Of a DNA stretch of 43,286 nucleotides, positions 8,141-13,572 are shown one piece after another. The notes under the pieces are model-generated. The model did no database searches. It was given only the letters and a program-made list of their open reading frames with translations, and was not told where the DNA came from. Location of the stretch: positions 1 through 43,286 of the forward strand of contig CALVRE010000026.1 of assembly GCA_944358455.1 (NCBI GenBank). The letters are read 5' to 3'. The DNA comes from an uncultured Bacilli bacterium. Lineage in GTDB: Bacteria > Bacillota_I > Bacilli_A > RF39 > UBA660. The first letter of the stretch is position 1. Every line of letters starts with the position of its first letter. The position numbers were made by a program, and so were the translations under genes.

Positions 8141-8306
8141 AAAAATGCTCAGAAGTGAGCCTTAACGATAAACCTGATCTCCCAGGTGGGCATCACCAGA
8201 CAAACTTTAGGATCCTTACTCGATGGTAAGTATTCAACACCATTCGTCCTTTAGATTCCCAATCGTTAACTTGTAGGTTTTTCTTAATAGCTCTTATCTT
8301 CTAAGC
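8141..8306 (-). ncRNA. ssrS: 6S RNA candidate
   Basis: An independent transcription unit of about 165 nt. On the minus strand it starts after an extended -10 (TGCTATAAT, 8313-8318) and ends at a GCTCA/TGAGC terminator (8147-8160) with a T-run. TTAACGAT near the 5' side pairs with ATCGTTAA near the 3' side as a closing stem. A local ACCTG-GGAGAT-CAGGT hairpin sits in the 3' strand of the resulting central bubble, and a terminal hairpin forms from CTTAC/GTAAG. A closed stem, a large central bubble with a 3'-strand hairpin and a terminal stem is the 6S architecture that mimics an open promoter and binds sigma-A polymerase. The position between the aspS block and tcdA is where B. subtilis carries 6S-1 (bsrA). 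The sequence itself was not matched to a covariance model. Confidence 0.65.
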
Positions 8307-8312
8307 AATTAC

Positions 8313-9721: not shown

Positions 9722-9753
9722 CAGAAAAAGAAAAAGAACTATTTTACTAGTTC
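9722..9753 (-). terminator. hisS-aspS operon terminator
   Basis: GAACTA (9736-9741) pairs with TAGTTC (9748-9753); on the minus strand a T-rich run follows. The aspS stop codon (9739-9741) is part of the hairpin. Confidence 0.7.
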
Positions 9754-11481
9754 AATTCCTAACTCTTTTAATTGTTTTTTATCAACGATATTTGGAGCTT
9801 CACTCATGAGATCAGATGCACTTGCCGTCTTAGGAAAGGCTACTACATCACGAATATTATCGGTACCAGCCAGTATCATAATAAGACGTTCTAAACCAAT
9901 TCCAACTCCACCATGAGGTGGTGTTCCAAATTGGAAAGCATCTAGGAAGAATCCAAATTTTGTTTTTGCTTCTTCCATCGTCATACCAATCGCTTCAAAC
10001 ACTTTTTCTTGCAATTGTTGATCGTGAATACGAATCGATCCACTCAGTAATTCATAACCATTGAGTACGAGGTCATATGCTCTTGAAAAACAATTTTCTG
10101 GATCTGTCATAAGTTTATCAACATCTTCTAAATTAGGCGATGTAAAAGGATGGTGAGCAGCCACAAAACGTTCTTCTTCTTCACTATACTCGAACATTGG
10201 AAAATTGGTAACCCATAAGAAATTATATTTTTCCTCCTCGATCAAGTGTAGATCATGACCAAGTTTATTACGAAGCGCTCCTAGTGATGATTGAACAATC
10301 TTCTTTTTATCAGCAACAATTAAAACAAGGTCATTTGCCTCAATTCCTAAGGTTGTAATAAGAGATGACTTTTCTTCCTCATTCATCACTTTTACAATCG
10401 AACCAGAAAGCTCTCCGTCATTATATTTTAAATAAGATAACGCTTTTGCTCCATAAATTTTTACAAATTCTGTCAATTTATCCAAATCTTTACGCGAATA
10501 ATCAGAAGCATGATTTTTAACGACTAGTGCATTAATAATACCTTTATTTTCTATGATATTTTTAAAGATTTCGAAGTTCGTATGCTCAAAGATGGAGGTA
10601 ATGTCCTCTAACTCCATAGCAAATCTGGTATCAGGTTTATCACTTCCAAATCGTTTCATACATTCTGTATAAGTAAGACGTTCGAAAGCATCTAATTGAA
10701 TTCCTTTGACCTGTTTAAAAATCTCTTTCATGAGACTTTCCACTACTTGCCAAATATCTTCTTCTGTAGCAAAACTCATTTCAATATCGATCTGTGTAAA
10801 TTCTGGTTGACGATCAGCGCGCAAGTCTTCATCGCGAAAACAACGAGCTATTTGAAAATATTTTTCCATACCACCAATCATCAATAATTGCTTATAAATT
10901 TGTGGTGATTGTGGCAAAGCATAAAACTTACCTTTGCTGATACGACTAGGAACTAAATAGTCACGAGCACCCTCTGGAGTCGATTTACAAAGAATTGGTG
11001 TTTCAATTTCAATAAAACCTAATTTTGATAAAAAATTACGAGTAATCAACGTCACTTGATGGCGAAGAATTAAATTTTGTTGTAGGTTTTCTCTACGTAA
11101 ATCCAAGTAGCGATACTTTAGACGAGTATCTTCTAAAGCTGTCGTATCTTTCGTAAGTTCGAATGGTAAATCGCTCGATTGATTGATAATCTTCAACTGC
11201 GAAACCGATAATTCTACTTCTCCAGTAGGAAGATTCTCATTTTTACTTTCACGTTCGACAACAATTCCTACTACTTCGATCACATATTCATTCTTCAACG
11301 TTTCACCTAAGGCATAACAAGGATTTTCAGGACGAATGACAAGCTGCATAATACCGCTACGATCACGTAAATCGATAAATAATAGTCCTCCTAAGTTACG
11401 CTTTTTAGCAACCCAACCTTTTAGTGTCACTTCCTCCCCTACATTAGATAGGCGAAAAGATCCGTTTTCATATTTTTTCAT
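9739..11481 (-). CDS. aspS: Aspartyl-tRNA synthetase, bacterial type
   Basis: This 580-residue class II synthetase has the bacterial layout: an OB-fold anticodon domain (1 to about 105, with GWVAKKRNLGGLLFIDLRDR), class II core, a GAD insertion (about 280-410), then motif 3. Motif 2 appears as CFRDEDLRADRQPEFTQID and motif 3 as GGVGIGLERLIMILAG. The length is normal. The start at 11481 is chosen for GGAAGGG upstream; an in-frame start at 11508 would sit inside the preceding gene. It is the third gene of the T-box hisS transcript. A discriminating or non-discriminating nature cannot be judged by eye. Confidence 0.96.
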   Translation of the reverse strand: MKKYENGSFRLSNVGEEVTLKGWVAKKRNLGGLLFIDLRDRSGIMQLVIRPENPCYALGETLKNEYVIEVVGIVVERESKNENLPTGEVELSVSQLKIINQSSDLPFELTKDTTALEDTRLKYRYLDLRRENLQQNLILRHQVTLITRNFLSKLGFIEIETPILCKSTPEGARDYLVPSRISKGKFYALPQSPQIYKQLLMIGGMEKYFQIARCFRDEDLRADRQPEFTQIDIEMSFATEEDIWQVVESLMKEIFKQVKGIQLDAFERLTYTECMKRFGSDKPDTRFAMELEDITSIFEHTNFEIFKNIIENKGIINALVVKNHASDYSRKDLDKLTEFVKIYGAKALSYLKYNDGELSGSIVKVMNEEEKSSLITTLGIEANDLVLIVADKKKIVQSSLGALRNKLGHDLHLIEEEKYNFLWVTNFPMFEYSEEEERFVAAHHPFTSPNLEDVDKLMTDPENCFSRAYDLVLNGYELLSGSIRIHDQQLQEKVFEAIGMTMEEAKTKFGFFLDAFQFGTPPHGGVGIGLERLIMILAGTDNIRDVVAFPKTASASDLMSEAPNIVDKKQLKELGIELVK

Positions 11482-11497
11482 AAGTCCCTTCCTTTCA

Positions 11498-11959
11498 TTA
11501 ATATCCATAATATTTTTCTTGATTCTCTTCTAGTTTTTGATTGCGAATTCGTTTTAGTTCTTTTTCTAATTCTTTTGGTACAAAACGTTTTTCGTATCGA
11601 CATAAGTCGAGAAACATACGAATTTGATCTGGTTCCAACTGTGAAATGTCTCCTGAAAAACCACCTTGTCCCGGAAAAAGAACTCCCCCTAAATAGTCGT
11701 TTGGCACGATTTCTTTCGAATACAAAATCATACCACGTTTTAATAGTTCATCGATTGCTAACATGTCTTCCGAATTTCCCGCATTAGGGACATGAAGAAA
11801 TGCACGAGCCCAATCTTCGTGACGATTGCTTTTTCCTTCTTTTCGAACTCGGTAGAAACAAGCACACTGTTTTTCCGAATCATAAGCAATAAAACCATCT
11901 CCGAATTTCACAATCTGATTCATCAAATAATAAGGAGTAAAATCGTATTCTTCGTTCAT
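11498..11959 (-). CDS. Unknown conserved-looking protein between hisS and aspS
   Basis: This is a 153-residue soluble protein I cannot place. It begins MNEEYDFTPYYLMNQIVKFG, then GDGFIAYDSEKQCACFYRVRK, a central region with LGGVLFPGQGGFSG (about residues 108-121), and a basic helical C-terminus (EKELKRIRNQKLEEN). No membrane or signal segment is seen. The ATG at 11959 has GAGGAATAACGAG before it and lies 4 bp from the hisS stop; a longer reading frame upstream only runs through the hisS tail out of frame. Its place inside a histidine-controlled synthetase operon suggests a translation-linked job, but that is inference only. Confidence 0.75.
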   Translation of the reverse strand: MNEEYDFTPYYLMNQIVKFGDGFIAYDSEKQCACFYRVRKEGKSNRHEDWARAFLHVPNAGNSEDMLAIDELLKRGMILYSKEIVPNDYLGGVLFPGQGGFSGDISQLEPDQIRMFLDLCRYEKRFVPKELEKELKRIRNQKLEENQEKYYGY

Positions 11960-11963
11960 CTCG

Positions 11964-13355
11964 TTATTCCTCATCCTTTTTATCATGGCAATGACAATGA
12001 CCGTCACAATCTTTATGATGATGATCATGTCCACATTCACATTCAGCGTGTTCCATATCAAAATCATAATCGATATCATCATCGATATCTGCTATTTTTT
12101 CATCTAAGAAATTGACTAAATATTCACTATCTACCTTGAATTCTTCTTTCGTATTATTATTTTTTATTGTGAGAATTTCCTCTTTGATTTCTTCTTCTCC
12201 AATAATGATAACAAACTTACTATTTAAACGATCTGCTTGTTTAAAATTACCTTTCAAATTACGACTCATATAATCCATTTCTACTTTAAAACCATTCATA
12301 CGCAAGTTTTGCATCGTATAAAAAGCATAATTTTTTTCATTTTCACTCATAGGAATGATATATGCATCGATCGTATCATCGATATCTAGTTCGATTTTCT
12401 CATGTTCTAAAGCTGATAATAAACGTTCCATACCAAGTGCGAATCCTACTCCTGGTGTCTCTGGGCCACCGATTTGTTCTACTAAATGATTATATCTTCC
12501 ACCACCACAAAGAACATTTTGACTACCAAAATCTTTGATATCTGCTTCTACTTCAAAAACAGTATAAGTATAATAATCAAGTCCTCTTACTAAATTATCA
12601 TCGACTTCATATGGAATAGCCATCAATTCCAAATATTCTTTTACTTTTTCAAAATGCGCTTTGCTTTTCTCACTTAAATAATCACTCATTTTAGGAGCCT
12701 TTTGAATACATTCTAAACCTGCATCCACTTTACAATCTAAAATACGAAGAGGATTTTTTTCATAGCGTTCTTTGCAATCTTCACAAAGCTCAGACAAATG
12801 TGGTTTAAAGTATTCTAACAGTGCTTTACGATAATTTTCACGCGATTCAGAATCTCCCAAACTATTAATTTTTACCTTGATACCTTTTAATCCTAACAAT
12901 CTATAAAAGTTGACTGGAATACTGATTACTTCTGCATCCATCATTGGATCATTGGTTCCAAATACTTCTACTCCAAATTGATAAAATTCACGAAAACGAC
13001 CAGATTGTGGACGTTCATATCGGAACATTGGTCCATAATACCAAGTTTTAACTGGTTGAGCTGGCTCACCATACATTTTATGTTCGATAAAAGAACGCAC
13101 GATTCCGGCTGTTCCTTCTGGACGAAGTGTCATAGAACGATTTCCTCGATCTAAAAAATCATAAGTCTCTTTCGTCACAATATCCGTCGTTTCTCCTACT
13201 CCACGATGAAATAGTTCTGTAGCTTCAAAAATCGGTGTACGAAGGTATTGATAATGATATTTTTCCATCAATCCCTCTAATAGCGTTTGTAAATACAATG
13301 TCTTTTTACTATTTTCACCATTTAAATCATAAGTTCCTTTTGGTTTCTGTAACAT
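11964..13355 (-). CDS. hisS: Histidyl-tRNA synthetase with Cys/His-rich tail
   Basis: This 463-residue class II synthetase charges tRNA-His. The N-terminus (LQKPKGTYDL), motif 2 (GPMFRYERPQSGRFREFYQFG) and the HisRS-specific VRGLDYYTYTVFEV are all clear. The C-terminal anticodon-binding domain runs to about residue 418. After it comes an extra acidic stretch (about 424-435) and then a cluster of 8 His and 5 Cys within residues 436-457. Ordinary HisRS proteins of about 420-430 residues lack this. The tail looks like a metal-binding or metal-storage appendage. The start at 13355 has AGAGGG upstream; the longer frame enters the T-box terminator. It is the first gene of the operon and is controlled by a T-box. 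Confidence 0.95.
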   Translation of the reverse strand: MLQKPKGTYDLNGENSKKTLYLQTLLEGLMEKYHYQYLRTPIFEATELFHRGVGETTDIVTKETYDFLDRGNRSMTLRPEGTAGIVRSFIEHKMYGEPAQPVKTWYYGPMFRYERPQSGRFREFYQFGVEVFGTNDPMMDAEVISIPVNFYRLLGLKGIKVKINSLGDSESRENYRKALLEYFKPHLSELCEDCKERYEKNPLRILDCKVDAGLECIQKAPKMSDYLSEKSKAHFEKVKEYLELMAIPYEVDDNLVRGLDYYTYTVFEVEADIKDFGSQNVLCGGGRYNHLVEQIGGPETPGVGFALGMERLLSALEHEKIELDIDDTIDAYIIPMSENEKNYAFYTMQNLRMNGFKVEMDYMSRNLKGNFKQADRLNSKFVIIIGEEEIKEEILTIKNNNTKEEFKVDSEYLVNFLDEKIADIDDDIDYDFDMEHAECECGHDHHHKDCDGHCHCHDKKDEE

Positions 13356-13372: not shown

Positions 13373-13572
13373 TAAAAAGAATCCATGATTTAAGGGCGAA
13401 TATTCGCGGTACCACCTTAATTCATAGATTCCTATGCACTTATTTCTTTAACGCAGAATTACGTTTATTTACCGTTTGATGTCTTCTTTATAATATCTTC
13501 TATGTTTCCACCAGCCACATAGTCTCTTATCAAAGAATTTTATAAATACTCCTTCAAACAAATAATCAATAT
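13373..13572 (-). promoter_or_regulatory. T-box leader of hisS
   Basis: On the minus strand the T-box core GGTGGTACCGCG (13405-13416) sits just inside a 16-bp terminator stem (13380-13395 with 13415-13430, one mismatch cluster) followed by T5. The leader of about 150 nt upstream contains a stem-I-like domain with a CTATGT/ACATAG apical hairpin. An AGACATCAA stretch could present a CAU histidine specifier. T-boxes sense uncharged tRNA by pairing the specifier with the anticodon and the bulge with the free NCCA end, then open transcription. The specifier assignment is inference from the downstream gene. Confidence 0.88.

Follow-up and report, generated by a model that had tools for sequence, protein, structure and literature searches.

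The histidyl-tRNA synthetase (HisRS) of an uncultured Bacilli bacterium, encoded in the window (the whole stretch of DNA analysed here, 43,286 nucleotides of contig CALVRE010000026.1), extends beyond the ordinary end of the enzyme into a C-terminal tail that is rich in cysteine and histidine, and tails of this kind are present on the HisRS of at least seven families of the same class. We consider it rather probable that the tail is a real, selected and intrinsically disordered extension that binds transition metals and acts as a tethered metal buffer or sensor. The earlier note on this DNA had already suggested a role in storing or sensing metal, and this is still the best reading in view of the recurrence of the tail, the shifting mixtures of Cys and His, the selection on their codons and the disordered structural model; the binding of metal, the identity of the metal and the effect on the enzyme or the cell are the parts that we infer.

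The gene hisS occupies positions 11,964 to 13,355 of the minus strand and encodes 463 residues, starting from an ATG with MLQKPKGTYD. The protein is a full-length match to TIGR00442 (E 2.9e-148; 494 bits against a curated cut-off of 287), and includes the Pfam domains PF13393 and PF03129, which correspond to the class II catalytic core and the anticodon-binding domain. TIGR00442 ends at residue 409, the anticodon-binding domain at 419, and the HisRS of Staphylococcus aureus (1qe0, 420 residues) aligns with residues 1 to 417 and stops there; from the profile and PDB comparisons the ordinary enzyme ends at approximately residue 409 to 420. The window hisS shares its core, its motifs and its operon position before aspS with ordinary bacterial HisRS such as that of S. 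aureus, but these enzymes finish near residue 420 and have no tail. In the window, translation of the minus strand gives the C-terminal end ...LDEKIADIDDDIDYDFDMEHAECECGHDHHHKDCDGHCHCHDKKDEE*, in which an acidic linker (12,051 to 12,095, minus strand, approximately residues 421 to 435), located at and after the last helix, is followed by the Cys/His-rich core HAECECGHDHHHKDCDGHCHCH (11,985 to 12,050, minus strand, residues 436 to 457) and by the acidic end DKKDEE (11,967 to 11,984, minus strand), read directly from the sequence. The earlier description of 22 residues with 8 His and 5 Cys past the ordinary end of HisRS is exact; the acidic stretch that it placed between them is present and spans about 14 residues, a little more than the 12 proposed. 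An AlphaFold model of this protein, built from 38 HisRS sequences, shows a confident core whose last helix spans residues 410 to 426, while residues 428 to 463 have pLDDT values below 50 and are predicted to be disordered. These features place the window HisRS among the proteins with a disordered Cys/His-rich tail, a putative metal-binding class that resembles SlyD and HspA. The GAG GAA codons of DKKDEE form a Shine-Dalgarno-like GAGG before the ATG of the next gene; this may account for the final DEE, though not for the Cys and His residues.

An open reading frame of 153 codons begins 4 nt past the hisS stop (11,498 to 11,959, minus strand); it has no Pfam family above the cut-off, and L002 and L032, the nearest two relatives, have frames of similar appearance 3' of hisS. 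The operon continues with an AspRS-like frame (9,739 to 11,508, minus strand), named aspS from its sequence resemblance and the gene order, and a match to 6S RNA (53.7 bits) lies downstream of the operon at 8,141 to 8,311 on the minus strand. Within the HisRS core, Cys 191, 194 and 208 (CxxC...C) do not vary among the 38 aligned sequences and form a possible metal site, separate from the tail.

The tail stands out against the rest of the proteome. Among 391 genes predicted in the window and in 20 stretches sampled elsewhere in this genome, Cys and His together average 3.1% of residues (Cys 1.1%, His 2.1%), and the richest 22-residue segment is the HisRS tail itself, with 13 Cys or His; the next best segment has 8. 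Similarly, the last 25 residues of HisRS contain 12 Cys or His and those of every other protein in this set at most 5. At the background frequency of this genome, 13 such residues in 22 have a binomial p of about 1e-14, but given that the segment was picked after the fact, the ranking within the genome is the better statistic. In four other genomes with tailed HisRS, none of the 356 sampled genes has more than 5 Cys or His in the last 25 residues, and the single protein that reaches 5 carries a SecA-type zinc tail, CPCGSGKKYKHCH (genome G141), which indicates that the C-terminal scan works. A search of 40 genomes with a profile of the tail gave four matches, all of them hisS, although some known hisS tails were missed. 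A scan of the DNA of 40 genomes for CHCH gave many sites; 49 of them were read out, and the ones that fall within long open frames belong to the ends of six hisS genes and to two unrelated proteins of genome G018, one permease-like and the other Rieske-like. The permease-like protein (L149, G018:C14) has an internal CHCHGECHHKHKH loop and, besides the Rieske-like protein, is the only other metal-like CHCH noticed outside the hisS tails. From the sampled proteomes and the motif and profile scans, the idea that such tails are a general habit of these genomes was rejected.

The distribution of the tail was analysed by reading the 3' end of HisRS in relatives and in 80 further stretches from the matches listed by a class-wide search, with a preference for about one or two per genus; the named records among the relatives include uncultured Bacilli, Tenericutes, Candidatus Pelethosoma and Candidatus Onthousia. 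With tailed fractions, per-family counts included, biased by the ranking of genomes according to a profile that also covered the tail, 9 of the 18 members of the window's family with a readable 3' end have at least four Cys plus His past residue 417, and tails were found in f7 (7/7 sampled HisRS), f22 (13/13, mostly with C-x3-C-x2-C-x3-C or a sequence near it), f12 (11/11, with CxxC and two to eight Cys), f21 (7/7, with two or three Cys), f11 (6/7, with CCGGHGHG repeats) and f19 (8/13, with Cys and His or His only). A short His-only end is present in some sampled members of f13, and the sampled members of f4, f5, f8, f10, f14, f16 and f17 have no tail. HisRS sequences taken from outside the class show no comparable tail, and a phylum-wide search returned matches from the same class only. 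The nearest relative, L002, belongs to the same genus and its HisRS is 93% identical, but it ends in a short tail, DEKLQDMEVNDIIHDYEA, without Cys; the tail of L032, another close relative, is shorter and contains one Cys and four His. The HisRS tail of L011 (G013) includes 16 Cys and 6 His in 63 residues, with near-repeats such as GKECTCGDDCHC, and is metallothionein-like. In the comparison with related HisRS that the earlier note had proposed, many members of the family carry the tail, in frame, but the closest one does not. The earlier note would have given up the tail if all close relatives lacked it and a frameshift appeared at the end of hisS; instead, in-frame tails with differing codons occur in many independently assembled genomes, so an assembly or frameshift artefact was rejected.

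The 75 tails with at least four Cys or His contain, past the first four residues, 19% Cys, 14% His, 29% Asp plus Glu and 12% Gly. Their sequence differs by lineage, with patterns that include CHCH, CxC, CxxC, CCGGHGH(G) repeats and C-x3-C-x2-C-x3-C, and with up to 16 Cys. In one alternative, the tail is structural or mediates an interaction: the compact motifs of f22, f12 and f21 would fold round one zinc ion, or two CxxC tails would share one Zn and bridge the HisRS dimer, for partner docking as in SecA. The regular spacing of four Cys in nearly all 13 sequences of f22 and the CxxC pairs of f12 and f21 are in agreement with this proposal, as are the homodimeric nature of HisRS and the presence of the SecA-type zinc tail in one tailed genome. 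SecA, like the tailed HisRS, is an essential protein with a short C-terminal Cys/His tail. Nonetheless, the SecA motif is fixed (CxCxnCH), whereas within the window's family the HisRS tails preserve composition but not spacing, range from 4 to 22 Cys plus His, and are predicted to be disordered; in a fixed zinc fold the spacing would be preserved. We regard a structural or docking zinc tail as unlikely.

The rapid turnover of the tail could also indicate a weakly constrained end that drifts, that is, a tolerated extension without function that grows by expansion of repeats. A tree of 111 HisRS cores, obtained with a quick method and with several weak branches, requires at least 13 changes of tail state, and the window species and its sister L002 differ in their tails over very short branches; the tail of L032 suggests that it was lost in L002. 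Long tails, for instance those of L011 and L180, contain internal repeats, and many members of the family are tail-less. The absence of the tail from L002 and from half of the family indicates that it is not essential to charging. Against drift, Cys and His are the residues on which independent tails converge, and in the sampled proteomes this convergence is seen on one enzyme and on hardly any other protein; both residues are rare in the proteome of the window species. In addition, the Cys and His codons of four close independent pairs show 13 silent against 4 replacement changes (17 changed codons), a silent excess with p between 1e-7 and 1e-4 when the neutral silent fraction is set between 0.17 and 0.30. 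These codons point to selection for Cys and His, from a modest data set with few changes, and drift without function thus appears improbable.

A thiol redox switch, in which pairs of Cys would sense oxidants and tune HisRS activity while His and the acidic residues are incidental, would account for the frequency of CxC and CxxC; however, the enrichment of His beside Cys and the His-only tails of f13 and f19 fit metal better, and we hold such a switch to be distinctly improbable. In the metal-binding reading, which we prefer, the Cys thiolates and His imidazoles of the tail would bind transition-metal ions, Zn(II) being the first guess and Cu(I) or Ni(II) the next. The tail would load as free metal rises, and once loaded it would keep metal off the synthetase and off its metal-chelating substrate, histidine, or would hand the metal on. 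One shared chemistry for all tails is not certain, considering that some tails of f19 and f13 have only His and some of f21 and f12 only two Cys in a CxxC. No linked metal-transport gene was noticed, without a systematic search.

The hisS operon is preceded by a T-box leader (13,389 to 13,565, minus strand; RF00230, 104 bits), and the earlier note had considered a feedback on histidine demand. A His-responsive T-box would show CAY as specifier; in the specifier region of the window leader, GAAGACAUC, the Rfam alignment places GAC (Asp) at the specifier, with an overlapping CAU. In 23 resolved hisS leaders the specifier is GAC in 20 and AAC in 3, and a purine comes next; the codon that overlaps it two bases on varies, being CAY in 15, CAR in 7 and CGC in 1. 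An AAC (Asn) specifier, as opposed to GAC, was seen in the hisS leaders of L054, L057 and L061. Given that GAC or AAC is kept in all 23 leaders while the overlapping codon varies, and that an aspS-like gene lies downstream, the window T-box most likely reads tRNA-Asp, with the overlapping CAU as a small doubt. Furthermore, a T-box motif within 500 nt is absent at many tailed hisS genes and present at many tail-less ones; the raw table of tail against T-box gives a Fisher p of 0.006 that ignores relatedness, and no association was detected in phylogenetically independent pairs, which are few and of low power. The proposal that HisRS synthesis responds, by way of the His-rich tail together with a His T-box, to the supply of histidyl-tRNA draws on the eight His codons near the end of hisS and on the T-box ahead of it, and was rejected as almost certainly wrong on account of the Asp specifier, the lack of association between tail and T-box once phylogeny is considered, the tails without a T-box, and the composition of the tails, which are as rich in Cys as in His and in some cases have Cys without any His.

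Appended metal-binding tails are known from other proteins. Escherichia coli SlyD is reported to have a C-terminal metal-binding domain that binds nickel (PMC11198818); like the tailed HisRS it is a housekeeping protein with such a region appended, but its host is a prolyl isomerase and not a synthetase, and the likeness lies in the kind of architecture, with no claim of sequence homology. His-rich C-termini are also described for the GroES of Helicobacter pylori (HspA) and for mycobacterial GroEL1, whose tail has been studied as a ligand of Cu(II) (PMC5116745, PMC10170517). These are tails on essential-type proteins, as in HisRS; however, their hosts are chaperonins, whereas the HisRS tails combine Cys with His and differ strongly from one relative to the next. 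Bacterial metallothioneins have a high Cys content, some His and CxC motifs, as in the tail of L011, but are free small proteins; no Pfam family matched any of four HisRS tails at E values as high as 1, no PDB entry matched the L011 tail, and membership in this group was rejected on these grounds. No description of such a tail on HisRS was found in open papers, a scope that leaves most subscription journals outside, and the open literature yielded no synthetase or T-box precedent for it. SlyD and the two chaperonins thus already exemplify the appending of a metal-binding tail, and HisRS as the host enzyme would be new.

A speculative reason for the recurrence of the tail on HisRS is that the substrate of this enzyme, histidine, is the main metal-chelating amino acid. 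A further possibility, which we put forward as tentative and doubtful, is that HisRS has repeatedly become metal-responsive in these lineages, with a tail that would shield histidine or the enzyme, or that in its metal-bound form would switch charging and so link metal status to translation. Chaperones and metallochaperones are known hosts of metal-binding tails; a recurrent tail that, as far as sampled, is confined to one tRNA synthetase suggests a link between metal handling and histidine charging in this clade, and natural pairs of tailed and tail-less enzymes, such as those of the window species and of L002 (93% identical), allow this link to be tested directly.
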